This document shows positions 4,226 to 42,487 of a stretch of 64,000 nt of DNA, piece after piece (position 1 is the first letter of the stretch; each line of letters begins with the position of its first letter). A program made the position numbers and the translations under genes. The DNA lies in contig NZ_JAQOSQ010000001.1 of the NCBI RefSeq assembly GCF_030068455.1, forward strand, positions 372,001 to 436,000, written 5' to 3'. The notes beneath the pieces are model-generated. The model was not told the origin of the DNA and searched no databases. It saw nothing but the letters and a program-made list of their open reading frames with translations. Source of the stretch: Roseofilum casamattae BLCC-M143. GTDB lineage: Bacteria > Cyanobacteriota > Cyanobacteriia > Cyanobacteriales > Desertifilaceae.

Positions 4226-6019
4226 TTAGCGCTGTCTGGCGAACTTCTTGCTCACTTTGCGCAAGCGTACTGATTCCGGAGTAATTTCGACCAGTTCGTC
4301 GGAGCCTATATATTCTAGAGCGCGCTCTAAACTCATTTCCACTGGGGATTGGAGTTGTACCAGCTCGTCTCCAGTGGACGATCGCATGTTGGTTAGCTGC
4401 TTCGTTTTGCAGACATTTAAATCCAAATCTTGCTGGCGGTTGTGTTCGCCAACGATCATACCCTTATAGACTTTAGTACCTGGAGTAATGAAGAATACGC
4501 CTCGATCTTCAGCGTTTTTCATCGCGTAGAATGTTGCCGTTCCTTCTTCAAAGGCGATCAGAACTCCATTTCTGCGGGTTTCAATGTCTCCACTGAGGGG
4601 ACGGTAATCGAAGAAGCTGTGATTCATAATACCTTCACCGCGCGTCAGACGCATGAATTCGCCACGGAAGCCAATTAAGCCTCGTGCCGGAATAATAAAT
4701 TCCAGTTGCGCGCGACCGTTCGATCCCATTTGCATATCTTGCATTTCGCCGCGACGCTCGCCCAAGCGTTCCATACATCCACCCACGGCTTCTTCCGGGA
4801 TGTCGAGAATTAAACACTCGTAAGGCTCGCAAGGCTGTCCGTTCACTTCGCGATAAATCACTTGCGGCTGGGAGACTTGGAATTCGTAACCTTCGCGACG
4901 CATAGTTTCAATGAGAATACCGAGGTGCAGTTCGCCACGTCCGGAGACGGAAAAGCGTTCGGGGGAGTCGGTGTCTTCAATGCGTAGGGCAACGTTGGTT
5001 TCTAGTTCGCGAATTAGGCGATCGCGCACCTGACGTGACGTAACAAATTTTCCTTCTTTACCGGCAAAGGGCGAATCATTCACGGAGAACGTCATCTGCA
5101 ATGTCGGTTCGTCTACCTTAATCAACGGTAGCGCTTGCGGCTCGTTCGGACAGGTAATCGTTTCGCCAATATTGGCATCGCTAAATCCGGCAACCGCAAC
5201 AATATAACCGGCAGAAGCTTCCTCCATCTCCACCCGGCGCAATCCTTCAAATCCCATTAATTTCGAGATTTTGGATTTAACAATGGTGCCATCATCTTTC
5301 ACTAATGCGGCTTGTTGGTTGGCAGCGATGGTACCGTTGTGGATGCGACCGATGACAATCCGACCGAGATATTCGGAATAGTCTAGAGTAGTAACTTGCA
5401 GTTGCAGAGGTTTATTGCGGTCGCCCACTGGTGGGGGAACGTGGCGCAGTACTGCATCAAATAAGGGCTGCATATCCACTCCCTCAGCATCTAAGTCATC
5501 TTTAGCATAGCCTTCGAGACCGGAAGCAAACAGGTAAGGAAACTCGCACTGGTCGTCATCAGCACCCAATTCCAGGAATAAGTCGAGCACCTTGTCAACT
5601 GCTGCATAGGGGTCGGCTCGCGGGCGGTCAATCTTATTGACAACGACAATAGGACGCAACCCTTTCTCCAAGGCTTTTTTCAGGACGAACCGCGTTTGCG
5701 GCATCGGTCCTTCATTGGCATCGACAATCAGGATACATCCATCAACCATACCCAGTACCCGCTCGACTTCACCGCCAAAGTCCGCGTGGCCGGGAGTATC
5801 AACAATATTAATGAGAGTATCTTTATAATGAACGGCTGTATTTTTAGATAGAATCGTAATTCCCCGCTCTCGCTCCAGGGTATTAGAGTCCATAACGCAA
5901 TCCGGAACTTCTTCGCCTTCACGGAAAATACCCGACTGCTTCAATAGAGCATCCACAAGAGTTGTTTTGCCATGATCGACGTGAGCAATGATGGCCACAT
6001 TGCGAATGGGAAGAGACAT
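4226..6019 (-). CDS. typA: Ribosome-associated translational GTPase TypA/BipA
   Basis: The 597-residue length is the usual one for TypA/BipA, an EF-G-like GTPase that binds ribosomes and supports growth under stress. The G1 motif is AHVDHGKT near residues 12-19, followed by [12 protein letters not shown] (G3) and NKIDRPRA (G4). Domain 2, the EF-G-like domains III and V (with [15 protein letters not shown]), and the BipA-specific C-terminal region all follow, so the protein looks intact. It starts at ATG ([10 protein letters not shown]). A separate transcription unit is likely, since the flanking genes show no tight overlap. Confidence 0.96.
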
Positions 6020-6132
6020 ATAGAGCTAAATGGCGTTAACTATAGATTTCTTAACAATCTTATCACGATCGCCCCCGATTTCCCCGATTCGCCATCAACT
6101 CAAGGATCGACTCTCGGTCATTTACTTTTAGC

Positions 6133-7098
6133 TCAATCTGCAAGAATCTGGGTTCTGAACCATGCTAGAGTTTCTAGCAGTCCATCCCAGAGCGATCGCT
6201 CTAAGGAAAAGCCCGTACCGAGCAGTTTTTTATTGCAGCCAATCCAGTGGATGGGGTCGCCACTGCGGCGATCGCCGGTAAAGACAATGCGGTCGGGGTT
6301 GCGATCGGCTAAGGTAACGATTAAAGTGGCTAAGTCGTGGATTGTCGTTCCTTTAGCCGAGCAAATATTGAAAATTGGCGCGCTCATGTCAGCCAGATCG
6401 GCCAGCAAGAGTAATGCCCGCGCAGCATCATTCACGTAAACGAAATCGCGCATTTCGCAGCCGTCTCCCAACAGTTCGATCGGCTCGTCCGAAAGTAGAG
6501 TTTTACACAAGATGTCAAATACCACTTGTTTCCTCTGCCCCGGCCCGTAGAGCGAAAAGAGACGAGCGATCGCGCTTTGAAAGCCATAGCACTGGGAGAA
6601 AACGCGAATGTATTCCTCAGCAGCCAATTTGCTCGCGCCATAAGGAGAAATGGGTTTGGTTGGTGTCATCTCGTCAATGGGAACTTGTCGCGGTTCTCCA
6701 TATACAGCAGCGGTGGAAGCATAGACCAAGCAACCGGAAAATCTACTATTGCGGAGGGCTTCGAGCAGGTTAAACGTTGCTACCAGATTTTGGTTAAAAT
6801 CGAGTACTGGAGTTTTCGTCGAATGGGCAGCATAAACGAATCCTGCTAGGTGGAAAATAACATCAAAATGCTGGTGAGTTAAAACCTCCGACTCATGCAA
6901 GTCAGTCAAATCCAGTTGGATAAAGTCCTGGGGTAACATTAAGTTAGATCGAGCTGCTCCGTCTTTTGCTTCCGGGGCACTTTTATCGAGACCCGTTACG
7001 TAACCGCCATGCTGTCTCAGTTGGTGGCAGACTACCCGTCCCAAAAAACCGCTGACTCCGGTCAGAAGAACGCGCTTCCCTTCAATTGCGATCGCCAT
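6133..7098 (-). CDS. NAD-dependent epimerase/dehydratase (SDR family, UDP-sugar epimerase-like)
   Basis: This 321-residue extended SDR protein has an N-terminal Rossmann motif of the type TGVSGFLGRVVCHQL (GxxGxxG at about 14-20) and the catalytic YxxxK as YGASK in the middle of the protein. It resembles UDP-glucose 4-epimerases and related NDP-sugar epimerases/dehydratases. The exact sugar cannot be read from the sequence. It lies 18 bp downstream of the SPINDLY-like glycosyltransferase gene on the same strand, so the two are probably co-transcribed: one would shape a nucleotide sugar and the other transfer it. Both lie downstream of the lasso precursor on the same strand, so involvement in peptide glycosylation is a speculative possibility. 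Confidence 0.85.
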   Translation of the reverse strand: MAIAIEGKRVLLTGVSGFLGRVVCHQLRQHGGYVTGLDKSAPEAKDGAARSNLMLPQDFIQLDLTDLHESEVLTHQHFDVIFHLAGFVYAAHSTKTPVLDFNQNLVATFNLLEALRNSRFSGCLVYASTAAVYGEPRQVPIDEMTPTKPISPYGASKLAAEEYIRVFSQCYGFQSAIARLFSLYGPGQRKQVVFDILCKTLLSDEPIELLGDGCEMRDFVYVNDAARALLLLADLADMSAPIFNICSAKGTTIHDLATLIVTLADRNPDRIVFTGDRRSGDPIHWIGCNKKLLGTGFSLERSLWDGLLETLAWFRTQILAD

Positions 7099-7116
7099 TA
7101 ATCCGTGTTATTGATA

Positions 7117-8772
7117 TCACAACCGATTCTCGCCTCTGACGGCATGTTCCAGAAAGTCTTCTAAGCCTTCAATGCAGGCCGTATCGGCATAAATCTTATG
7201 TTTGTTTGCCGCCATCCGCGCCCTTACCTGCTCTCGGAAAGCGGCATCTTGACCGAGACGAATGGCGATCGCCACATAATCTTCCGGGGAACTGGCAATG
7301 GTTTCGCTAACTCCCATATGTTGCAGAATGCCGGTGCTGACGCGGCCGCGCAAAAATTCCCCAGTTAGAGTAACGATGGGGAGATTGTGGGCGATCGCTT
7401 CTAGAGTTGTGTTGGTGCCAGCTACACCGATGCTGTCGAGGAAAATATCGGCGAGATCGTTGAGACGATGGTAGCCAGCATTAGATACAGCCGGCTGCAT
7501 GACGACATACTGTTCTAGGTCGAGACCCTCAGCAGCAAAGGCATTCTGCAATCGTTTGCTCAATATTTTCGTCTGTGCTTCTGAGGTTTTGTGCTTCATA
7601 AAGATAAACTGACAATCGCCCACCAATCGGGCAATGTGCGGGTAAAGCCAATCGTATTGTGGCAAATATTTAAACAGAGACTGAGCACAAAAGTAGACGA
7701 TAGCTGATGGGCGCAAGCCAAAGTCGTTCCGTTGCTCCGATGCCAGAGTTTCCTGGAGCGGAGTGTAGTACATGCCGAGATTGGGCAGTTGAACCAGTTT
7801 TTCCAGGTACTGTTCTTCCGCGCGCTTGGGTTCGATGAGCGCTCCAGTTAAAAAATAATCTATAGTCGGTAAACCGCTAGTGACATAAGTCGCCCAAGTG
7901 GTAGCTTGCACTGGAGCCAGTCGCAAGGCAGAAAGCTGAATGGACTTGCTATTCATGCTGACTTCAGGATAGAGCAAGATATGCGGTCGATCTGCCTGGA
8001 TGAGCTGCCCCCATTCCTCAGTCTTGTGGGAGCCAGTGACTAATTTCGACAAACAACTCCGAGCAAACTCGGTCTCTTCATCCTGAGTTTTGTTGAGCGC
8101 ATAGCCAATGAGGTGGAATTTTTCGCGATCGAGTCGAGCTATCCATCCTTTGACGATCGCTTTCCAGACTGAATGACGATAAAAATTTCCCGAGACAATA
8201 CCGACTCGGATGGCTTCATCAGGCTGTGGGGAAACGATGGGTAGCTCTTGTGCCCACTGCGGATAGCGAGCGGCCATAATCTGGGTAACGATCTGGCCGT
8301 AGAGGCGCATCAATTCCAGATCGTCGCCACTTTGGTAGGCGAGATAAAAAGGCGTCATATAACCCACAGTGTCTGCTAAGGCCGCAACACTAGATCGCCT
8401 AGCTTGCACCAGTTTCTCGCTCAAAGTGATTAATTGCTGCTCGTATTGCTGGCGGCTGTACAACACTTCTTCTGGCTGCCGATAGACAATGGGAAGTTGC
8501 AACATGCACCGATAAAAGTCTGGCAGTAAAGATTCCGGGTCAATTGCCGCTGCTTTGTTAGAGCAATCCTGCGCTTGAGCCAATTGACCGATCTGATGAT
8601 GAGCCTTTGCTAAACCCATATAGGTTGCAATGCAATTCGGTTCCACCTCCAGAGACCTCCGATACCAAGTAACAGCTAACGCACTGAGTTTGGGATCTGG
8701 TGGATGCTGAAGATAGGAGATCGCTATGCGGTTGTATTCAGCGGCTTGAGCTGGTAGCTGGGGAGCTAGCAA
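7117..8772 (-). CDS. TPR / SPINDLY-like (OGT-type, GT41) glycosyltransferase
   Basis: The 551-residue protein has short N-terminal TPR-like repeats (about 1-110). Its catalytic region resembles SPINDLY/O-GlcNAc transferase proteins: SGNFYRHSVWKAI in the first half, TSGLPTIDYFLTG in the middle, and the nucleotide-sugar-binding segment DSIGVAGTNTTLEAIAHNLP followed by VTLTGEFLRGR near the C-terminus. Family members transfer GlcNAc or fucose to Ser/Thr, or build other glycans in bacteria. The gene is 18 bp upstream of an NDP-sugar epimerase on the same strand and 210 bp downstream of the lasso precursor. A TATAAT hexamer on the minus strand (8889-8894) may give it its own promoter. Donor and acceptor are unknown. 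Confidence 0.85.
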   Translation of the reverse strand: MLAPQLPAQAAEYNRIAISYLQHPPDPKLSALAVTWYRRSLEVEPNCIATYMGLAKAHHQIGQLAQAQDCSNKAAAIDPESLLPDFYRCMLQLPIVYRQPEEVLYSRQQYEQQLITLSEKLVQARRSSVAALADTVGYMTPFYLAYQSGDDLELMRLYGQIVTQIMAARYPQWAQELPIVSPQPDEAIRVGIVSGNFYRHSVWKAIVKGWIARLDREKFHLIGYALNKTQDEETEFARSCLSKLVTGSHKTEEWGQLIQADRPHILLYPEVSMNSKSIQLSALRLAPVQATTWATYVTSGLPTIDYFLTGALIEPKRAEEQYLEKLVQLPNLGMYYTPLQETLASEQRNDFGLRPSAIVYFCAQSLFKYLPQYDWLYPHIARLVGDCQFIFMKHKTSEAQTKILSKRLQNAFAAEGLDLEQYVVMQPAVSNAGYHRLNDLADIFLDSIGVAGTNTTLEAIAHNLPIVTLTGEFLRGRVSTGILQHMGVSETIASSPEDYVAIAIRLGQDAAFREQVRARMAANKHKIYADTACIEGLEDFLEHAVRGENRL

Positions 8773-8981
8773 TAGCGACCTCCTTGTGGTTTAGCGATCG
8801 GCTTTGGCAACTGGGGAGTATCAAGTCCGCCAGAATAGTTGTCATTGCGACTTTTTGTCTGTTGGCGATCGCCGGAATGCAATGATTAATTATAATTGAT
8901 TCAGCGGACTCGATCTGACTGGAGGTATACACCCAACTCAACTCCCCTTTCCAGGGAATGCTTTATCCAAGCAATGTTGCA

Positions 8982-9128
8982 TTAAGAAGGCACAGGTTGG
9001 CATGCACCACTTTCAGCATTAGGTTGGAAGGGACCGCCTTCTGTTTCTCGTACCGAAATTTTATTCAGTTCGGGGGCCAGCCAGATTTTTTTTGCTTGTT
9101 GCGACTGGTTGTTTGGATCTGCATTCAT
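8982..9128 (-). CDS. Lasso peptide precursor (A gene), 48 aa
   Basis: This short gene would be missed by length cut-offs. Translation gives a 30-residue leader and an 18-residue core. The leader contains WLAPEL (16-21), the YxxPxL motif bound by lasso B1 proteins with Trp for Tyr, and ends in RETE with Thr at position -2, the hallmark of lasso cleavage sites. The core GGPFQPNAESGACQPVPS (residues 31-48, DNA 8985-9038) has Gly1 and its only acidic residue, Glu9, which predicts a nine-residue macrolactam ring. The C-terminus is Ser, matching the kinase encoded in the cluster. There is one Cys (core 13). The start is ATG at 9128. An in-frame TTG at 9212 would add 28 hydrophobic residues and is less likely. 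The Shine-Dalgarno sequence is weak. Confidence 0.85.
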   Translation of the reverse strand: MNADPNNQSQQAKKIWLAPELNKISVRETEGGPFQPNAESGACQPVPS

Positions 9129-9161
9129 AGGATTAAACTTAATTTCTAAGGGGCTGTTTAT

Positions 9162-9190
9162 AAGATAACCATTGAAATAGTATTTGCCAA
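9162..9190 (-). promoter_or_regulatory. Putative sigma-70 promoter of the lasso precursor gene
   Basis: On the minus strand, TTGGCA (9185-9190) and TATCTT (9162-9167) are separated by 17 bases. Transcription would begin near 9155, giving a leader of about 27 nt before the ATG at 9128. A separate promoter would allow high expression of the precursor relative to the upstream biosynthetic genes. This is inferred from sequence only. Confidence 0.4.
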
Positions 9191-9405
9191 GGAAAAATAA
9201 AAAAAGGAGCAATCACTGAGAAGAGTCGGGAAAATTCAGGAGTTGAGTTTAAGCTAGAAGAATTACGAATCAAAATGAATAGAAATACTACTCCAAGTGC
9301 CAGCTCAACTTATTCTCAGTCAGTGAAAACCACTAGTAAAAGGGGAGGTATAGGGATTTCGATATTTTCTTTTAAACAGTCTCTAAGATAAAGTGACGAA
9401 ACTAG

Positions 9406-11307
9406 TTAGACTCTAAAGCTATTCACACAGGCTAGGGTAATCAAAAGGACTTCTACATCCCGTTTCATTTCCTTGGTTTGCGATATTACCTCCTTTAGCT
9501 TGTTCAAATCTACATACTTCGCTGCCAGAAGATCGCCCTCCTGCAAGCCGAGACGATCGCTTAACGCAGGTAGAGCTGGCGGCCATACGCGATCGAGAAC
9601 GGCAAAAGCAGCGGCTTCTCGTTTGGAACGATTCTGTTGTACTGCTGCTGGTAATATACACTCAACTGCTCTACGCATCAAGGATCGCCTGCAGCCTTGC
9701 CGGACGAACTGCTCTGGTGGCGAACCGAGACCAAACTCTAAGATGCGCCGGTCTAGCAGAGGGTAAGAATAGAGCATTCCCTGGCGATCGCCATTGACTG
9801 CCCAGGCTTCAATTCGTTTGGTCAAATGCCCGTTATTGAGCCAACGCCACTGATTGGCTTGCACCCCCGGACGTTCCCGCAAAGAGGGCCCGCGCATGGC
9901 CATCACTGCATCTTTATGCTGCTTGGCAAAACTGGGATTGATGCAGGTCAGAGGATAGCAACTGTTTCGGCTGTTCGGGCCGTGCCACCAAGACCAGATC
10001 GGTTCGGGGATTAGAGTCCGTGACACCTTACTATAGGCTACGCGAGCATCTAATCTGAGAGCGTATAATAGGTTAGCGCCTTCTTGGTGGGACACAATGC
10101 GAATTTCTCGATGGAGTTGTCTCCAACGTCCCTGCAAAAACAGCTCGGACAAAAAGCCCCAGCCGTGACCGGTAATACATTCATCTCCGCCCCAACCGGA
10201 AAGCATGACACGAACCCCGTTCCGGGCGGCTTGCTTTTGGACGAGTTGCTCGCGAAACATCATCTCTGCTGGGTCGCGGCTGAAGTCTCGAGAGTAGGTC
10301 CCGACCACATCTTCAACCTGTAAGTCAACATATTGGCATTCAAGACCTTCTTGTTGACAAAGGAGCTGGATTAATCGGCGCTCGTCGTCGGGGCATTTGC
10401 CTGTCGTTGGAGGTGGCGGAGACCAGGAATAGGCGGTGGGGGTTTTACCTTTCTGGCGGAGCAATTGGGCGGCGATCGCAGTCACGCTAGACGAGTCCAG
10501 TCCTCCACTTAGATGACAGCCAACCGGGAAGGGAGTCTGAATCCGGCACTCTACTGCTTGGAAGAGTAGCTCGCGCAACTGTTCGGCATAAGCTTCATCG
10601 GAGGAAAGACGCACTTCCCTGACATTATCGAGAGACCAGTATTGAGTCAGTTGGCTACTTTTTGCGGTCACCGTCAATTGATGAGCTGGCGGTAGTTTGA
10701 CAATATCGGCTAAAAAAGTTTGGCGTTTTTCGGGAAAGTAAGTATCTTCCTGTAAATAGGCCGCTAGTAACGGTTCGTTCGGGCGGTGCGGCACTTCTGG
10801 GCGAGAGAGCACTCCCTCGATATCGGAAGCGAAGATAAAGCAGCGGTTATCTTCGTAATAATAAAACGGTTTGAAACCCATATGATCTCGACCGCAAAAG
10901 AGTTTTTGTTCCCTGCGATCCCAAATGGCAAAGGCAAATTCACCGATGAGACGACTGACACAGTCTTGTCCCCATCTTTCGTAAGCGAATAAAACAAGAG
11001 TACTGTCGGGTATGGTGCGACTCTCGGCTGGCGTTATGTTGAGGGCTGCAAAGAGATCCTGTCGATTATCGATGCGCGCGTCGGCAGTAATGACCCAATG
11101 TGGATTCTGGGGATGGGAAACGGGTAATTTTTCGTAGAGTGATTGAGGGGTTGAGTGCAACATCAAATGACCCAAACCCACGGATTCTTTGCACCAAGAA
11201 CCCCGGCCGTCCTTGCCCCAAGATGCCATGGCGTTTTCGATCGGCGCGATCGCCTCTGAGGTCACTGCTGTACCGTCTTTATAAAAAATGCCGTATATTC
11301 CGCTCAA
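9406..11307 (-). CDS. Lasso cyclase (C protein), asparagine synthetase B-like
   Basis: Lasso C enzymes adenylate the Glu/Asp side chain and form the isopeptide ring with the core N-terminus. The protein is 633 residues from a TTG start at 11307, preceded by GGGAG nine bases upstream. The open frame extends upstream to 11472, but that would overlap the previous gene, and asparagine-synthetase homology begins at SGIYGIFYKDG. Position 2 is Ser instead of the Cys of true glutamine amidotransferases, as expected for a cyclase. The pyrophosphate-loop motif SGGLDSS is at 267-273, and a conserved SGWGGDE follows. The gene ends 277 bp before the precursor, and an upstream gene stop lies at 11343. Confidence 0.88.
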   Translation of the reverse strand: MSGIYGIFYKDGTAVTSEAIAPIENAMASWGKDGRGSWCKESVGLGHLMLHSTPQSLYEKLPVSHPQNPHWVITADARIDNRQDLFAALNITPAESRTIPDSTLVLFAYERWGQDCVSRLIGEFAFAIWDRREQKLFCGRDHMGFKPFYYYEDNRCFIFASDIEGVLSRPEVPHRPNEPLLAAYLQEDTYFPEKRQTFLADIVKLPPAHQLTVTAKSSQLTQYWSLDNVREVRLSSDEAYAEQLRELLFQAVECRIQTPFPVGCHLSGGLDSSSVTAIAAQLLRQKGKTPTAYSWSPPPPTTGKCPDDERRLIQLLCQQEGLECQYVDLQVEDVVGTYSRDFSRDPAEMMFREQLVQKQAARNGVRVMLSGWGGDECITGHGWGFLSELFLQGRWRQLHREIRIVSHQEGANLLYALRLDARVAYSKVSRTLIPEPIWSWWHGPNSRNSCYPLTCINPSFAKQHKDAVMAMRGPSLRERPGVQANQWRWLNNGHLTKRIEAWAVNGDRQGMLYSYPLLDRRILEFGLGSPPEQFVRQGCRRSLMRRAVECILPAAVQQNRSKREAAAFAVLDRVWPPALPALSDRLGLQEGDLLAAKYVDLNKLKEVISQTKEMKRDVEVLLITLACVNSFRV

Positions 11308-11342
11308 GGTCTGTAAGCTCCCAAGAAATTTTAGTACAGGAC

Positions 11343-11840
11343 TTACGCTATTAACTCGTAAGACCAAACTGCACCCGGCCCGACCTTGAGAAGCATTCTG
11401 GAAGGGGCAAACCATTCCCAGTAAGGCAAACGGGTATCTGCTTCCGGTTTGGGAAAAAGTGTCAGTTTGCATTCATTGTCAAACTCTATCGCTAGTCCTA
11501 ATTCGGAATAGCTGGTTTCTAAGGCTGTTATCTGGGCTTGTTCTAGTATCTGAATTTTTTGTTTCAGACTGGTTGCCTCTTCATCAAAAGTGGCAATAAT
11601 TTCGCCCGCGCGCTCGAGGCTCCACGCCGTTGCTCTCGTTCCGAGTATCCATTCTCCTTTTTCTTTGCCCGACATAGACTTTTGAGCATAAGGAAGTCTT
11701 TTTCCCATATGAAGGCTCAACTCGTCGCCATAACCCAGGTTTGCTCTCCAGCATACTTCACCGATCGCCCTATTAATTATTTCTTGGAGTGGTTCTAGAT
11801 CCTTAGCTGTTGTCACCTTGTTAATTAAGTTACTTACCAT
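11343..11840 (-). CDS. Unknown 165-aa protein inside the lasso cluster
   Basis: I do not recognise this family. The protein is soluble, with no signal peptide or membrane segment. Features are a helical N-terminus, a WILGTRATAWSLERAGEII segment at about 64-82, a short charged helix (EEATSLKQKIQILEQAQ), and a Trp-rich C-terminus (YWEWFAPSRMLL). It lies on the same strand between the B2 gene (ends 11883) and the cyclase (starts 11307), with gaps of 42 and 35 bp, so it is very probably co-transcribed. Possible roles are an accessory tailoring factor, a chaperone of the synthetase, or self-protection. Nothing in the sequence decides among these. Confidence 0.65.
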   Translation of the reverse strand: MVSNLINKVTTAKDLEPLQEIINRAIGEVCWRANLGYGDELSLHMGKRLPYAQKSMSGKEKGEWILGTRATAWSLERAGEIIATFDEEATSLKQKIQILEQAQITALETSYSELGLAIEFDNECKLTLFPKPEADTRLPYWEWFAPSRMLLKVGPGAVWSYELIA

Positions 11841-11882
11841 TGCTCAATATGATTAACCCACAATTTAAGGTTTGACATGGCA

Positions 11883-12347
11883 CTAGCCACCAAAGAAAGA
11901 AATTGCTTTAAATTGAGATTGAATGACACCACCGGTGACGATTTCCTGTCCGACTCTGAGCCACGCATGGGCTTCGAGTCCATTGGCATTCTTTTTCAGT
12001 CCCAGATAGAGGGTGCTGGCAATTTTGCGCCGTCGCAACATGATTTTACCGGCGATCGCCCGAGCCAAACAGTTGCTACGCCAGGGAGTATAGCGGCTGC
12101 TAGTGGCGATCGCCCAAACGATCTGCTCGACGATGGGCTGTTCCGCTGGTTGGATGCTAGCTTCTGGGGTTTCTTGGTTGAGCTGGCCCAAATAGGGGGC
12201 GATCGACCGAAAGGGCAAAAGCAACACGCAGCCCCGAGCTAAACCGAGCCAGAGAAACGCTTCGAGAAACGTCAGTTTTCTCGGGAGGGGTTGCTCGTAA
12301 AATCTCGCGGCTTTAATCCTCAATAATGCGAACCAGCTTTTCATCAA
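11883..12347 (-). CDS. Lasso peptide leader protease (B2, transglutaminase-like)
   Basis: This 154-residue protein is of the lasso B2 type, a transglutaminase-like cysteine protease that removes the leader peptide. The catalytic Cys is in SNCLARAIAGK (Cys93) and the His in EAHAWLRVG (His127). A hydrophobic stretch (about 28-46) precedes the catalytic part, as is usual. The start ATG at 12347 overlaps the 3' end of the B1 gene by about 35 bp in another frame. A second ATG directly follows, so the true start may be either one. B1 and B2 are separate proteins here, as in paeninodin-type clusters. Confidence 0.88.
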   Translation of the reverse strand: MMKSWFALLRIKAARFYEQPLPRKLTFLEAFLWLGLARGCVLLLPFRSIAPYLGQLNQETPEASIQPAEQPIVEQIVWAIATSSRYTPWRSNCLARAIAGKIMLRRRKIASTLYLGLKKNANGLEAHAWLRVGQEIVTGGVIQSQFKAISFFGG

Positions 12348-12609
12348 TTATCTTTTCTACGAAAGGCAATACATCTCGCTGACAGGTTTCATCATCCACG
12401 TCAAATTCCTGTTGCAGTTTAGCACAGAGTTCGCCAACAGTCAGAGGCTGCTCCAGCAACTCCCAAATTCGCGTACCAACAGTATTCGCACCGTAGTAGC
12501 TATCTGTCTGTAAATTCATCATCACGACTTCATCCTCCATAACAGAGGCCAAAATCTCTTCATTACGAACGATTGTTTGCTCCAGAGCAATTGTGCCATC
12601 TGATCCCAT
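12313..12609 (-). CDS. Lasso leader-recognition protein (B1, PqqD-like RRE)
   Basis: This 98-residue PqqD-family protein is the RiPP recognition element that binds the precursor leader and delivers it to B2 and the cyclase. Typical features are VMEDEVVMMNLQTDSYYGAN followed by VGTRIWELLEQPLTVGELC and a C-terminal helix pair. It has a clear ribosome-binding site (GAGG, nine bases before the ATG). It begins 21 bp after the kinase gene and overlaps the B2 start, so the three genes form an operon. Its expected ligand is the WLAPEL motif of the precursor. Confidence 0.9.
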   Translation of the reverse strand: MGSDGTIALEQTIVRNEEILASVMEDEVVMMNLQTDSYYGANTVGTRIWELLEQPLTVGELCAKLQQEFDVDDETCQRDVLPFVEKIIDEKLVRIIED

Positions 12610-12630
12610 ATTTATCTATCCTCGATTGGT

Positions 12631-13548
12631 CTATTTTGTCGTTCTGGCAATATCTTCTTCTAAACATTCGATGACTTCATCGAGGCAAAAATGACTTTGC
12701 GGTCGAATCACCTGTTTAACCTGGCAATGGTTCAGTACTTGAGAGACTTGCTGGAACATTCTGCCTCCCACGCCCAAACCGTTAGTACATTCCATTCGGA
12801 ATACATTGCGCATCAATACCTCAAACTGCTTGACTTTGGTTAAAGATATGACTGAAACCGTTGATACATCAGCCGGTTCGAGTAAATAAATACCGTGCAG
12901 TTTGCTGGACTGACCGGCCGGCAAGTCGGACAAATATTTCGTGTATTTATCTTCTTTATGCCATACTCGCTGCATGGTCTGGCGATCGTAGTCTAACTGT
13001 TGTAAGGCATCATTCCACAATCGAATTTGAGCCAAGGCGGGAAACACTTGCGGTTCTCGATCGGGAGAACAGCCAACTACACATAAGTCATCTGCCAAAA
13101 TTGGATAACCTGCCTTGAGCAACCCAGCCGCTAAGGTTGATTTGCCCGCACCGGACGGCCCTAAGAATATGACGGCACCGCGATCGCTGTCAATCGCGCT
13201 GGCATGGAAGACTAAATGACCGCGTTGATGCAGCAAGGCGCCAAACCCTTGGGAGAAAAGGTAGAGACGTATGAGGTCTTCAGGGCAACCGGCAGCAGGA
13301 TCGATAATAATTTCTTTGCCATCGATCGCTAAATATTTGGCAATTTCATTCACTTTGAGCAGGTAAGCTCCGGGTTTGATTTGACTGAACCAGTCTTCAT
13401 AGACCGCTCCAACTAGGCGATCGCTGACCGGCCCGACAGAAATACGAACGTCAAAATCAGAGCCGTTGCCAGAGTGGGGGCGCAATTCAGGACAGGCTAA
13501 CTCAGAGACAATATTTAAGCCGCAAGCCCTATATCGATACAGGGTCAT
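12631..13548 (-). CDS. HPr-kinase-like lasso peptide kinase
   Basis: The 305-residue protein is related to HPr kinase/phosphorylase. Walker A GPSGAGKS is at 130-137 and is followed by LADDLCVV (Asp153/Asp154). In paeninodin-type lasso clusters such kinases phosphorylate the C-terminal Ser of the precursor. The precursor here ends in Ser, which fits. The best start is ATG at 13548, preceded by AAGGGTG. An upstream in-frame ATG at 13566 would add six residues. It is the first gene of the minus-strand biosynthetic run and diverges from the exporter gene, 158 bp away. Confidence 0.85.
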   Translation of the reverse strand: MTLYRYRACGLNIVSELACPELRPHSGNGSDFDVRISVGPVSDRLVGAVYEDWFSQIKPGAYLLKVNEIAKYLAIDGKEIIIDPAAGCPEDLIRLYLFSQGFGALLHQRGHLVFHASAIDSDRGAVIFLGPSGAGKSTLAAGLLKAGYPILADDLCVVGCSPDREPQVFPALAQIRLWNDALQQLDYDRQTMQRVWHKEDKYTKYLSDLPAGQSSKLHGIYLLEPADVSTVSVISLTKVKQFEVLMRNVFRMECTNGLGVGGRMFQQVSQVLNHCQVKQVIRPQSHFCLDEVIECLEEDIARTTK

Positions 13549-13706
13549 AGATTTTTCACCCTTCATAACTCTTGTCTAGTTATACCCCTCATATGCTATT
13601 TTCATTTCACGTAAACCTCTCCTCTCTAGGAGAGACTTTCTCTGTTTGAGTGCTGGGGGGCGGTCAACGATCGACTTTATTTTTTCCTATAGTATAGTAA
13701 CGTGCT

Positions 13707-15506
13707 TTGAATAATCGACTACAACTCCTCAAAAATCTGAAACGAGCTACCGGTTTAGTTTGGCAAAGCACTCCGGTTTGGACGGCTCTGACGATTATTC
13801 TTGTCATCTTACAAGGTTTGTTGCCATTAGTTTCATTGTACTTAATGAAGTTACTCATCGATACGGTGACCGCAAGCGTTGGCAATGGCATGTCTGCGTT
13901 TTATGATGTCCTAAAGATTGTCTTGGCGATCGGCATAACCTTACTCGCGAGAAATCTGTTTGGGGCATTGTCTGGATATGCCCGAGATGCTCAGTCTCAG
14001 ATCGTAACTGATGTGGTTAACGATCTGTTGCATAGTAAATCGATTGAGCTTGACCTAGAATATTACGAAAATGCGAGTTTTTATAATTCTCTGCATCGCG
14101 CGCAACAAGAAGCAATCTATCGACCGCAGAATATCCTCAACAGTTTGCTGCAACTGGCTCAAAATGGGGTTTCGATTGTGGCGATCGCCGGATTGCTCCT
14201 GTCTCTCCATTGGTCAATTAGTACGGTATTAGTTTTCGCCGCAATTCCGGTTTTACTCGTTCGTTTGCAGTACAGCAAAAAACTCTATAAACAGCAAAAA
14301 ACCTGGACGGAGAAAGAACGGATTGCTTGGTATTTTCATTGGATGCTGACTGCCGAAGCTTATGCCAAAGAAGTACGGCTCTTCGATCTCGGTTCCTTGT
14401 TTCGCCAGCGTTACCGCAATCTACGGCAGCAGATTCGCGAAGAAAAACTAACGTTGTCTCGGCAGCGCGCGATCGCTCGCTTTTTCAGTCAATTTGGCGG
14501 TCTGGTTGCTATCTTTTCTGCGTTTAGTTTTATTGCCTATCAGACCATTATCGGAGCGATTACTCTAGGTAGCTTGGTCATGTACTATCAAGGGTTTCAA
14601 CAAGGTCAAGCATTTTTAGCACAGCTTCTCGCAAGTTTCGCTACTTTATATGAAAATAGTTTATTTCTCTCCAATCTATACGAATTTCTCGATTTAAATC
14701 CGAGAATTGCTAATCTGCGATCGCCTCAAGTTATTCCTACTCCAATTAAACATAGCTTAAAATTTGAAAATGTCTCGTTTCAATATCCCCATAGCACTCG
14801 TTCCTTACTGCATGATATCAATCTCACTATTCCCGCCGGAGAAACTGTAGCTTTAGTCGGAGAAAATGGAGCGGGGAAAACAACATTAATTAAATTATTA
14901 TGTCGTCTTTACGATCCGACGAGCGGACAAATTACCATCGATGGTATCGACCTGCGCGATGTCAATACCACAGACTGGCGAAGAGAAATTAGTGTCGTCT
15001 TTCAAGATTATGTGCGCTACGATTTAACAGTTCGCGAAAATATTGGATTCGGTCATATTGCCAATATTAATAACCATGAAGAAATTATCAGAGCAGCAAA
15101 AAAATCCGGAGCAGAACGAGCGATTTCTCGACTCCCACAGGGATACGATACTATGCTTGGAACGCAGTTTGCTGAAGGAGAAGAATTGAGCATTGGTGAA
15201 TGGCAAAAAATTGCGATCGCCCGTGCTTTTTTGCGTCCCGCTCAACTTCTAATTCTCGACGAACCCACCAGCGCTCTCGATGCGGAAGCGGAATATGAAG
15301 TCTTCGAGCAATTCCGCCAATTAATTCAGGGAAGAACAGCTATTCTCATTAGTCATCGCTTGTCTACCGTGAAGATGGTCGATCGCATTTTTGTCTTAGA
15401 AAAAGGTCGAATTGTAGAAACTGGTTCTCATAAAGAATTATTGAAACTAGGCGGCACTTATGCTCGCTTATTCGCCATTCAAGCCAAGTATTATCAATCA
15501 AATTAA
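13707..15506 (+). CDS. Lasso peptide ABC exporter (D protein)
   Basis: This 599-residue half-transporter has six predicted membrane helices (about 25-300) followed by an ATPase domain. Walker A GENGAGKT is at 385-392, the signature appears as LSIGEWQK near 490-500, and Walker B is ILDEPTSALD. It has no N-terminal peptidase domain, which agrees with leader removal by B2. It would export the mature peptide and may give self-protection. An in-frame stop at 13698 leaves TTG at 13707 as the first possible start. A TATAGT-like hexamer lies only about 15 bases before it. The gene is divergent from the kinase gene. Confidence 0.88.
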   Translation: MNNRLQLLKNLKRATGLVWQSTPVWTALTIILVILQGLLPLVSLYLMKLLIDTVTASVGNGMSAFYDVLKIVLAIGITLLARNLFGALSGYARDAQSQIVTDVVNDLLHSKSIELDLEYYENASFYNSLHRAQQEAIYRPQNILNSLLQLAQNGVSIVAIAGLLLSLHWSISTVLVFAAIPVLLVRLQYSKKLYKQQKTWTEKERIAWYFHWMLTAEAYAKEVRLFDLGSLFRQRYRNLRQQIREEKLTLSRQRAIARFFSQFGGLVAIFSAFSFIAYQTIIGAITLGSLVMYYQGFQQGQAFLAQLLASFATLYENSLFLSNLYEFLDLNPRIANLRSPQVIPTPIKHSLKFENVSFQYPHSTRSLLHDINLTIPAGETVALVGENGAGKTTLIKLLCRLYDPTSGQITIDGIDLRDVNTTDWRREISVVFQDYVRYDLTVRENIGFGHIANINNHEEIIRAAKKSGAERAISRLPQGYDTMLGTQFAEGEELSIGEWQKIAIARAFLRPAQLLILDEPTSALDAEAEYEVFEQFRQLIQGRTAILISHRLSTVKMVDRIFVLEKGRIVETGSHKELLKLGGTYARLFAIQAKYYQSN

Positions 15507-16732
15507 CCTTTGAATAAGTTCCGGAGAGATGATAGTTTTTCCGAGTTTAGTTTATAACTCGTAATTAACCGGAAAATCCGCAGGGGATAATAGAGAAAAA
15601 ACAAAATATTCGGCAGGGGAAATGATTCGCGATCGCTTGCCCTTACAGTCAAAACAATATTGAGCACGTATTGGATTTTACTCCACAAGGTAGTTTCTTT
15701 TTTCTCCCACAAACTGATAATATAGAATATATAGCCATATTCCATATTTTTATAATACATATACTCCTTATGTTGTCTGGCAATTTTCAACACTTCTGGA
15801 AACTGTTTTAGCTTTTCTGCAAGTATCTCTGGAAGGGAAATTCGTAGATAGATTTCGGCGATCGCAACTCCGAGCCAAAATACGCGATCGTTCTCATCGG
15901 TTTCGCATCGATCCATAACTTCCAGCCAATTTGCCTCTGGATAAGTCTGAATTAACTTGCCAAAATCGCATATTCTTTTCAATGAATTCCAACTGTCTTT
16001 TGTGCCTTGAAGATAGCTAATTGCGAGAGAATTTTCTGGAGAAAAGGTAGCTACTTTCTTACCCAAAAAAGATAAAGTTTGCAAGTCCTCAAAAAAGGAT
16101 TCCGTCTCGACCTGTAGATAAAAATCTCGTGGCGTTAACTTATAGTGTACATCGATGTTCGTTCGGCGATCGGGTAACACCATCTGGGCTTCTCCCAGAC
16201 TCTCTTCATTAGCACCAAAGTTTTTGTCATAATATCCTCGCTCGATGAGGATATCTTTCGCTTTCGAGAAGTCTTCAGGACGAACTAAAATATCTAAATC
16301 GCAAAAATCTCTTAAAGCTATATTGCCATAACCTAACTGTGCCCAAATCGGACCTTTAAAAGGAATAGCTTGAATATTATGCTGTGTGAATAGATTTACT
16401 AACTCTACAAGGGTTCCGCTTAAGAATAAATTATACATCCTCCGTTTCTGAAACTCAACTCCCATAAGCTCGAATACAGAAGCTGGTAGCGCAGATGACT
16501 TTATTTCTTTCAAAGTTTGATAGACGAGCATAGATATACCATGGGCAAGGGCAAGTTCCCACACAATACTCCAATTAATATCTGTTTTGAGTAAATCAGT
16601 AATATCCGCAGAATTAGCTGTCTTCAATTGATAGCGAGCGCAAAATAAAAGCAATTTATTGACCGGCAATTTTCTTTCATTTTGGCTAGAGCCTTGAGAA
16701 TTAGTAGAATGGAGATTTGTTTGTCTCATCAA
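15503..16732 (-). CDS. Nucleotidyltransferase-like protein (NTP_transf_5 type) next to lasso cluster
   Basis: This 409-residue protein resembles the uncharacterised nucleotidyltransferase family often found near lasso and other peptide clusters. The likely nucleotidyltransferase core is IPFKGPIWAQLGYGN followed by RDFCDLDILVRPEDF, with DLDILV carrying the two acidic metal ligands, and then DVHYKL. Its reaction in such clusters is not established. Its stop codon overlaps the exporter stop by four bases in convergent orientation. It has its own promoter region at about 16733-16800 and runs toward the exporter. Assignment to the cluster rests on position and on recurrence in similar clusters. 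Confidence 0.75.
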   Translation of the reverse strand: MMRQTNLHSTNSQGSSQNERKLPVNKLLLFCARYQLKTANSADITDLLKTDINWSIVWELALAHGISMLVYQTLKEIKSSALPASVFELMGVEFQKRRMYNLFLSGTLVELVNLFTQHNIQAIPFKGPIWAQLGYGNIALRDFCDLDILVRPEDFSKAKDILIERGYYDKNFGANEESLGEAQMVLPDRRTNIDVHYKLTPRDFYLQVETESFFEDLQTLSFLGKKVATFSPENSLAISYLQGTKDSWNSLKRICDFGKLIQTYPEANWLEVMDRCETDENDRVFWLGVAIAEIYLRISLPEILAEKLKQFPEVLKIARQHKEYMYYKNMEYGYIFYIISLWEKKETTLWSKIQYVLNIVLTVRASDRESFPLPNILFFLYYPLRIFRLITSYKLNSEKLSSLRNLFKG

Positions 16733-40559: not shown

Positions 40560-41738
40560 TCAGCATTGTACCAAGAATAGTCCTAACTCGGCTAATAGAG
40601 AATCTGGAGTTCCGGTGAGCTGACGGGCAAACCGAGGTGCGATCGCCGGAGCGAGAATCATGGGTGTGGTAAACCCTGAAAACAGATGGACTCTCTCCAT
40701 TCCGGGGACGGGGCCGAGGACGGCTAACCGCTTATGAGAAAAGGCCACCAAGCAGGAGTGCCAGTTGCCGCGACATTGTCCTAAACTCGGTAACATGCCC
40801 TCGATTCGTTCTCGCATGGCCTGTTGACTCTGTTGCGCATTGACCCGAGCATTGGGATCGCTCAGGGCCCGGCTAATCTGTCCGAACAAGAGACGACCTC
40901 CGCGAAATTGCACGGCATCGGCATCGATAATGCTCGGCGCTAGCTCCCGTCCGGGCTGGTTCCACAAGGTTTCATTTTCCGCACGACTGGCTTGTTCTTC
41001 GAGGTGGGTGCGATCGCTGTTGACGGAGGTAACGATTGTGGATAAGCGGAAGGGACAATCTGGAATTTCAATGAGTTCGGCATGGGTAAAATAGACGGGA
41101 ATCTTAATACCGGCGTTGCTTAAAAGCTGGCGCGTCCAACCTCCAGCGCAAACGATCGCCTGTTCTGCATAGTAGGTTTCCTCGGAAGTGGCGATCGCGC
41201 AACCCTTACCGTTCCCTTGCAACTGTTCGACTCGTCCCGGCACAATTTTACCGCCATGGCGCTCGATTCCTTGCTGATAGGCTTGGTTCAAAGCTACGGG
41301 ATTAACGTGACCTTGTTCGATGCTCAGAGCGCCGGCGATCGCTCTTGGATTCAGTAAAGGTTCGACTTTCCTAGCTTCTTCCGGCTCGAGCAGCTCGAAC
41401 CCTTCATCGAGGTGCTGATATCGCGCAATGGTTGCCTCTAGGTTGAGATCGTTATGGCAATCTAGAGTAAACAACATCTGACGCCGCTGGAACTGGGTAT
41501 CCATTCCCAACTCTTCCGAGAGTACTTCATGTCTGGCTTTCCCTTCCAGCAACAGTTGTCCGATCGCTCCCGAGGCTCCGTACCAGCAAATCATGCCATA
41601 GCTGTAGCGAGTGGCCCGATCGGAATTGACCATCGGATCGAGCAGCAAGACGCGACAGCCGAGTTTGCTCAATTCGTAGGCGATCGCGCTGCCCGTAATA
41701 CCGGCGCCAATAACAATCCAATCGTAAGCGTTCATCAA
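40560..41738 (-). CDS. FAD-dependent oxidoreductase (DAO family)
   Basis: This 392-residue protein of the glycine/D-amino-acid-oxidase type has the N-terminal Rossmann motif VIGAGITGSAIAYELSKLG (GxGxxG near 10-15). Later motifs include VNPVALNQAYQQGIERHGG and CAGGWTRQLL, which fit the DAO fold. FAD-bound enzymes of this kind oxidise amino acids or amines. The substrate is not known. The C-terminus has a GFTTPMILAPAIAPRFARQL segment near the family's usual flavin end. Confidence 0.85.
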   Translation of the reverse strand: MMNAYDWIVIGAGITGSAIAYELSKLGCRVLLLDPMVNSDRATRYSYGMICWYGASGAIGQLLLEGKARHEVLSEELGMDTQFQRRQMLFTLDCHNDLNLEATIARYQHLDEGFELLEPEEARKVEPLLNPRAIAGALSIEQGHVNPVALNQAYQQGIERHGGKIVPGRVEQLQGNGKGCAIATSEETYYAEQAIVCAGGWTRQLLSNAGIKIPVYFTHAELIEIPDCPFRLSTIVTSVNSDRTHLEEQASRAENETLWNQPGRELAPSIIDADAVQFRGGRLLFGQISRALSDPNARVNAQQSQQAMRERIEGMLPSLGQCRGNWHSCLVAFSHKRLAVLGPVPGMERVHLFSGFTTPMILAPAIAPRFARQLTGTPDSLLAELGLFLVQC

Positions 41739-42487
41739 AAATTTAGTTAGTAATATTGAGCTTGTGGAGTAGTTCTGTACCTCACTAGCCTGCTATTGTT
41801 CCCGAGTATTGATTACCCAGAATATGTGTGGGCTGAAGTGCGATCGTAAAACTCTAGATCGTTGAGTCTATCTAGGCTCCAGAGAAATCTAATCATACCA
41901 GAAACTGACCCACCCCTGGCCCTCCCAAGCTTATCTTGTAGGGGTTTCTACGAAACCCCGTCCAATTGGGCTTATGGGCTAGGGAGTAGGGAAGTAGATC
42001 CGGGAAAACTGACTCAAACCCAGATGGATGGACTAGGAGTAATCCAAGGTAAAGTGCGAGGTTTGATACAGCACAATATCTTACTAGTGAGCGAAACGGG
42101 TGTTCCCTTGGGACTAGGATACATTTGAAGGATGGAAACCGCATTACAGGGCGATTGACAGAAGTCAGTTTAGTCCAGGAACACTTCTTGATTCATGGTA
42201 ACAAAGGCACTCACCCGATCGGGTGGAATAAGATATCTCAAGTGGAGTTGAGGAACGTAGACTTCTATCAAACACTTCCGAGCAATTCTATTCCAACAAT
42301 GGTCCATCCAAAGTTAGGGCAGCAGTGTACTCAAGGTTCTATGGAGTGTGCAGACCGCTAGTGTTGAATATTTTATTATTTATCGAGTCTACTTCATAGC
42401 TTTTTTTCGTCCGTTCAGTTGTAAGGTGGGCAGGAAAATAAGCAATATTATTCGACTTTAAAACCAATAAACTGCCCGCCCTACTGG
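41739..42487 (+). pseudogene. Region without intact gene; remnant of an IS4-type transposase
   Basis: About 750 bp hold no complete gene. A frame at about 42020-42128 reads GLGVIQGKVRGLIQHNILL followed by SETGVPLGL, a pattern resembling the IS4-family (Tn5-like) transposase core, and it stops right after. A short unrelated frame follows (42125-42361, starting LKDGNRITGRLTEVS). A hairpin GGGGTTTC-TAC-GAAACCCC is at 41940-41958. The stretch looks like a decayed insertion, but the match is short and by eye. Confidence 0.4.

Follow-up and report, generated by a model that had tools for sequence, protein, structure and literature searches.

A cyanobacterial lasso peptide operon encoding a putative kinase, a GT41 glycosyltransferase and a sugar-nucleotide epimerase

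Phosphorylated and glycosylated lasso peptides

Phosphorylation of a C-terminal serine has been demonstrated for the lasso peptide paeninodin and for peptides related to it (PMC9266682, PMC13381572). In pseudomycoidin, where the kinase PsmK is accompanied by PsmN, an annotated nucleotidyltransferase, the latter is needed for hexosylation of the phosphoserine (PMC9266682). Kinases, nucleotidyltransferases and some glycosyltransferases (e.g., those of family 2) are also on record beside lasso genes (PMC7533575). The closest possible prior art to the locus described here is a glycosylated lasso peptide that carries, as the product considered below may, a sugar on Ser (Sun et al., 2025, Chem. Sci. 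16:6480), represented here by its citations in PMC13352647 and PMC13381572. No cluster pairing a lasso peptide with a GT41 enzyme or an O-GlcNAc transferase was found in the open-access literature.

The stretch of DNA analyzed, hereafter the window, comprises 64,000 nucleotides from Roseofilum casamattae BLCC-M143, and its 115 HIP1 sites (GCGATCGC; 1.6 expected) agree with the cyanobacterial origin proposed from the sequence. On the minus strand, from position 13566, it encodes an HprK-like kinase, B1, B2, a gene X, a lasso cyclase, a precursor, a GT41 glycosyltransferase and an epimerase. With the paeninodin cluster (PadeA/K/B1/B2/C/D) it shares a WxxP leader, Thr at -2, a predicted nine-residue ring, separate B1 and B2 proteins, an HprK-like kinase, a C-terminal Ser and an ABC exporter. 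It differs in its core, tail Cys, distinct cyclase clade and kinase, which is distant from NCBIfam HprK-related kinases, and in the presence of GT41 and epimerase genes in the operon. A kinase and an annotated nucleotidyltransferase are likewise shared with pseudomycoidin, for which neither GT41 nor epimerase is described and whose core is unrelated. Other cyanobacterial lasso clusters (Nostoc, Moorena, Cyanocohniella LLY; PMC9332814) have A, B1, B2 and C in common with this one, often with K, ABC and PF14907 genes, but they belong to a separate cyclase clade, their leaders are mostly YxxP, and no GT41 gene lies beside them in the DNA examined. The glycocin hallmark, two nested disulfides stabilizing a helix-loop-helix (PMC9266682), is absent, the core having one Cys only. 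On such testable features, the cluster can be classed with the paeninodin- and pseudomycoidin-like phosphorylated lasso peptides, to which it adds a GT41/epimerase module.

The precursor and its predicted ring

The precursor gene (A) occupies 8982–9128 on the minus strand. Its 48 codons, read from 9128 to 8982, translate as MNADPNNQSQQAKKIWLAPELNKISVRETEGGPFQPNAESGACQPVPS followed by a stop, which divides into a 30-residue leader, MNADPNNQSQQAKKIWLAPELNKISVRETE, and an 18-residue core, GGPFQPNAESGACQPVPS. The original prediction had placed a precursor here with no strand given; the plus strand encodes none. It was also correct in describing WLAPEL in the leader, a Thr at -2 and Glu9 as the sole acid of the core. 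Together with the amine of residue 1 and an Asp or Glu at positions 7–9, these features are those expected of a lasso precursor. A RODEO-like rule recovers the gene, and it is the only match in the cluster, so that no second precursor emerges there to displace it. However, the same rule also matches an unrelated 3′ end at 40560–41792. Since about 0.4 matches are expected in a random 64 kb and two occur in the window, the pattern alone is weak evidence; it is homology and genomic context that raise the precursor call above chance.

Homologues occur in four other genomes, each inside a lasso cluster: two congeners (94% and 77% identity) and two genomes of another family (58%). Their cores follow the consensus [GS]GPxxPNxExGACxP...S, which indicates conservation of the nine-residue ring, of a Cys in the tail and of a Ser at the C-terminus. 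Invariant positions are W16, P19 and T29 (-2) in the leader, and G2, P3, P6, N7, E9, G11, A12, C13, P15 and the last Ser in the core, the latter retained in all five precursors despite varying tail length. Residue 1 is either Gly or Ser, while the ring Glu stays at position 9 and Thr at -2. An eight-residue ring starting at Gly2 was rejected, as it would put Thr at -3 and the Ser-Ser and Ser-Gly relatives keep Glu at 9. Conservation of this kind supports assigning 8982–9128 as a lasso precursor with a Gly1–Glu9 ring, as first proposed, and likely phosphorylation of the C-terminal Ser.

The core had further been described as new. Its exact sequence was indeed found in this genome alone among the same-order and other-order genomes and the plasmid collection searched, but one congener has a core with a single substitution, S for G at residue 1. 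Beyond the homologues above, 391 genomes of the order and 65 of another order yielded no clear member of the family and one weaker relative (G370), and the plasmid collection gave no precursor match. With so few members and a congener core that differs at one residue, the family is uncommon without being confined to this genome.

Lasso enzymes, kinase and nucleotidyltransferase

The enzymes for lasso formation are all present. The macrolactam cyclase (C; 9406–11307, minus strand), with Asn_synthase and GATase domains, matches the lasso-cyclase model NF033535 at E 1e-146, although its 490 bits fall below the cut-off of 525; comparison with the congeners suggests that it probably starts at a TTG near 11307. 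The transglutaminase-like leader peptidase B2 (11883–12347, minus strand; NF033537, 103 bits against 33) and the PqqD-like RiPP recognition element B1 (12313–12609, minus strand; NF033536, 84.8 bits against 80) both exceed the NCBIfam lasso cut-offs. The enzyme set does not, however, surround the precursor as had been described: these genes and the kinase gene (9406–13566) lie upstream, and the GT41 and epimerase genes downstream.

The HprK-like kinase (K; 12631–13566, minus strand) has weak family scores and is a distant relation of the NCBIfam HprK-related kinases (44 bits against a cut-off of 200). By eye, it retains the His-Lys-Asp-Asp motif described in PMC9266682 as His121, the P-loop Lys142 and the Asp-Asp of LADDLC; His121 and Lys142 are invariant in seven cluster kinases. 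These residues uphold the suggestion that the peptide may be phosphorylated, and the C-terminal Ser would be the likely target. Next to the kinase, on the plus strand, is a divergent MsbA-like ABC protein, a probable exporter (D; 13707–15506), with an 81% identical gene in the congener G394. A PF14907 nucleotidyltransferase (15503–16732, minus strand; 165 bits against 31.2) adjoins it and has a 63% identical congener copy. PsmN is itself, we presume, a PF14907 protein.

This inventory lends itself to a conservative reading in which the locus is an ordinary cluster of the paeninodin or pseudomycoidin type: Ser18 would receive its phosphate from the kinase and a hexose on that phosphate from the PF14907 protein, and GT41 and the epimerase would act elsewhere. 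The kinase, B1, B2, C, exporter and PF14907 protein together fit that kind (PMC9266682, PMC13381572), and a C-terminal Ser ends 33 of 42 precursor-like ORFs in related loci. Moreover, cyanobacteria often encode GT41 enzymes, which were found in 100 of 390 genomes searched at E<=1e-50, so this one could act on another protein. The organization and phylogeny of the GT41 gene nevertheless make this reading unlikely.

A GT41 glycosyltransferase in the operon

Directly downstream of the precursor, 7117–8772 on the minus strand encodes a GT41 (OGT/SPINDLY-like) glycosyltransferase with an N-terminal TPR-like region (PF13844, 97 bits against 25). It shares the catalytic domain and TPR with human OGT, SPINDLY, XcOGT and bacterial NGT/HMW1C enzymes, from which it differs by a short TPR region and by being encoded in a RiPP operon. 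Its nearest solved relatives are OGT (E 1e-28), SPINDLY (8e-26) and XcOGT, with HMW1C/NGT much weaker. The equivalents of OGT His498 and Lys842 are H200 (in a structure-relative alignment) and K368, kept in six of six lasso GT41s. The gene that begins 18 bp after it (6133–7098, minus strand; PF01370, 176 bits) encodes an NAD-dependent sugar-nucleotide epimerase/dehydratase of the SDR type. Neither enzyme figured in the original prediction.

GT41 and SDR genes are neighbors in the operons of the window, the congeners G393 and G394, and the two genomes of the other family (G352 and G169). In the latter pair, the GT41 frame lies 3 nt beyond the stop of C, and a gap of 13 nt follows GT41 before a 58% identical SDR gene. 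The precursor has shifted between the families, the order being K-A-B1-B2-C-GT41-SDR in G352 and K-B1-B2-C-A-GT41-SDR in the window, and retention of GT41 and SDR despite this shift counts against their being chance neighbors. G352 and G169 keep both genes even though no PF14907 or ABC homologue occurs near their clusters in the DNA examined, which also speaks against an ordinary cluster with an unconnected GT41. Next to this cluster, G352 carries another of lasso type that runs on the opposite strand (L006, 2740–7790), with cyclase (32%), kinase (26%), B2 (34%) and a precursor-like ORF reading YHSPKF...LTL before TSTTFVGSDGGSGIFQYAS.

Inheritance of GT41 with the lasso cyclase

Seventy-eight lasso-type loci gathered with a cyclase profile were screened for GT41 homologues, which were found in two further loci, each from a single metagenome-assembled genome (MAG) on a long branch. 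One belongs to an uncultured Chloroflexota MAG (L034), where several precursors lie just upstream of GT41; at E<=1e-60, its own genome is the only one with a GT41 among 298 genomes of its class. The other is from a Desulforapulum (Desulfobacterota) MAG (L108), where GT41 adjoins the kinase.

One clade of the GT41 tree (support 98/98) unites the window, G393, G394, G352, G169 and L034, and outside it fall the 27 best-scoring other cyanobacterial GT41s used for comparison. The same six form one clade in the cyclase tree (96/98), their branching is identical in both trees, and the usual cyanobacterial lasso cyclases are placed elsewhere. On these trees, GT41 has been inherited together with the lasso cyclase. 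This agreement, Chloroflexota cluster included, is difficult to reconcile with a GT41 that acts elsewhere, as is the recurrence of GT41 in a Desulfobacterota lasso cluster. The Desulforapulum pairing may be independent, since that locus is far from the six in the cyclase tree and unplaced in the GT41 tree.

Both MAG clusters have further contents of their own. In L034, up to four tandem lasso-type precursors precede GT41 (12530–13808; e.g., SGTFASDFETALCCLPS, SGTAAGFTECFPCCNPS and SGAFFATAELTSPLNAQPLPS), and a sulfotransferase and a PF14907 protein are also encoded. The L108 cluster (4800–12540) comprises GT41, the kinase, two putative sulfotransferase-like ORFs, cyclase and B1, with no B2 match in that interval; its precursor-like ORF reads WIAPQF...KATA before GGANVNSEAFSYHPAS. 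The cyclase profile also reached archaeal-labelled contigs (L072, L075, L097 and L102, from Euryarchaeota, Methanothrix and Methanobacteriaceae MAGs), and on the Halopiger xanaduensis plasmid NC_015658.1 a lasso-type cyclase adjoins a B2 protein.

Candidate sugar acceptors

If GT41 modifies the peptide, conservation narrows the acceptor. Ser10 is replaced by Ala in the G352 precursor and the Ser at residue 1 of relatives by Gly in the window; Cys13 and the C-terminal Ser are the only hydroxyl or thiol groups retained throughout the precursor family. The two corresponding readings are sub-cases of tailoring by phosphorylation and glycosylation, so their likelihoods are not to be added to that of the general explanation.

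Action of GT41 on the C-terminal Ser, at its hydroxyl or at a kinase-placed phosphate, is a realistic possibility, though short of probable. Of the possible acceptors, it alone recurs in the window family, in the L108 core and in three of the four cores of L034. Glycosylation at the same residue is known in pseudomycoidin (PMC9266682), and glycosylation of a lasso peptide Ser is cited in PMC13352647. However, kinase clusters that lack GT41 have a C-terminal Ser just as often, and its presence therefore says nothing specific to this enzyme.

The alternative, that GT41 S-glycosylates the tail Cys13 and the sugar helps to lock the threaded tail, is rather doubtful. Cys13 is invariant, and the tail, SGACQPVPS, contains no obvious bulky plug residue. 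A tail Cys occurs in four of six GT41-linked core types and two of 26 others (Fisher p 0.006), a comparison that is post hoc, small and not between independent cases. OGT is able to modify Cys. Against this, the Cys could instead form disulfides, and it is lacking from one L034 core and from the L108 core, so Cys cannot be the sole acceptor; these two distant GT41-linked cores speak for the C-terminal Ser or for a flexible choice of site. The broadest version, in which lasso tailoring is the dedicated role of an OGT-like GT41 in several phyla, and S-glycosylation of the tail Cys creates a sugar stopper, appears distinctly unlikely.

The remaining weight would lie with other sites or with no action on the peptide. 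Among other sites, N-glycosylation at Asn7 is a possible but disfavored route, there being no N-x-S/T sequon and GT41 lying nearer to OGT and SPINDLY than to NGT.

Insertions and the state of the operon

Two insertions distinguish this copy from those of the congeners. A MITE-like element of about 240 bp (9145–9388) separates the stop codon of the cyclase from the start of the precursor; it was overlooked in the original prediction although it is directly upstream of the precursor. Its 24-nt terminal inverted repeats (9145–9168 and 9365–9388; 79% complementary) are flanked by short CTTAGA-like direct repeats; the element is absent from both congeners and present once in the genome. Both congeners have AAAGGAG before the precursor ATG, and the equivalent place in the window reads AAATTAAG, a poor candidate for a ribosome-binding site. 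The insertion may affect expression of the precursor.

The second insertion adds about 535 bases between B2 and C relative to the congeners and encodes gene X (165 residues; 11343–11840, minus strand), found at this position in this genome only. Gene X has no match in Pfam, NCBIfam or PADLOC. It was rejected as a pathway member, as both congeners lack it and its relatives, in 16 of 59 related cyanobacterial genomes, are without adjacent lasso genes; it is probably extraneous to the lasso pathway. The G394 operon is uninterrupted, and an apparent internal stop in its cyclase was dismissed as the normal terminal stop.

Both insertions and the loss of AAAGGAG raise the prospect that the locus is silent or decaying here, its operon split and its precursor poorly translated. 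The kinase of G393 (L027, 10843–11754) is frameshifted just before the P-loop, being either a pseudogene or an assembly error, so the pathway could be in decay or not needed. Yet every operon gene in the window is open and full length, and the window and G394 cores differ by five synonymous changes and one amino acid change, albeit over few sites. The MITE-like element contains a promoter-like site, though one no better than chance. Shine-Dalgarno sites are, besides, missing from many cyanobacterial genes. A silent or decaying locus seems improbable, although open genes alone are no guarantee of expression.

Proposed pathway and significance

The reading preferred here, to which we give somewhat better than even credence, is that the product of this lasso operon is tailored by both phosphorylation and glycosylation. 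From gene content, gene order, residue conservation and the joint inheritance of GT41 and cyclase, all read directly from sequence, we infer each catalytic step, along with the sugar and the site that receives it. B1 would bind the WxxP leader, the HprK-like kinase would phosphorylate the C-terminal Ser18, B2 would cleave after Thr(-2)-Glu(-1), and the cyclase would thread the tail and join Gly1 to Glu9. With less certainty than for these four steps, GT41 would add a sugar to the peptide, and the epimerase would supply or alter the sugar nucleotide that it uses. The phosphate may carry an additional hexose, attached by the PF14907 protein, and the divergent ABC protein would export the product.

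The original prediction had taken the product to be the plain or mono-phosphorylated lasso. Its masses are reproduced on recalculation (lasso 1723.7624, [M+H]+ 1724.770; mono-phospho [M+H]+ 1804.736), but as a complete account it falls short, having missed GT41 and the epimerase and left the PF14907 protein unweighed. Because GT41 and the epimerase lie in the operon and the PF14907 gene adjoins it, both masses probably correspond to intermediates instead of the end product. Calculated neutral masses for candidate forms are 1803.729 with phosphate, 1885.815 with Hex, 1926.842 with HexNAc, 1965.782 with phosphate and Hex, 2006.808 with phosphate and HexNAc, and 3445.509 for a disulfide dimer.

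The cyclases of these clusters represent a lineage distinct from that of the usual cyanobacterial clusters, one that spans Cyanobacteriota and Chloroflexota. If the proposed pathway is correct, an OGT-type glycosyltransferase would join the lasso peptide toolkit, and a bacterial GT41 enzyme would be paired with a short peptide substrate that is genetically encoded. For most bacterial GT41 proteins we know of no established physiological substrate; a 48-residue candidate encoded in the enzyme's own operon would make the question of substrate directly testable.
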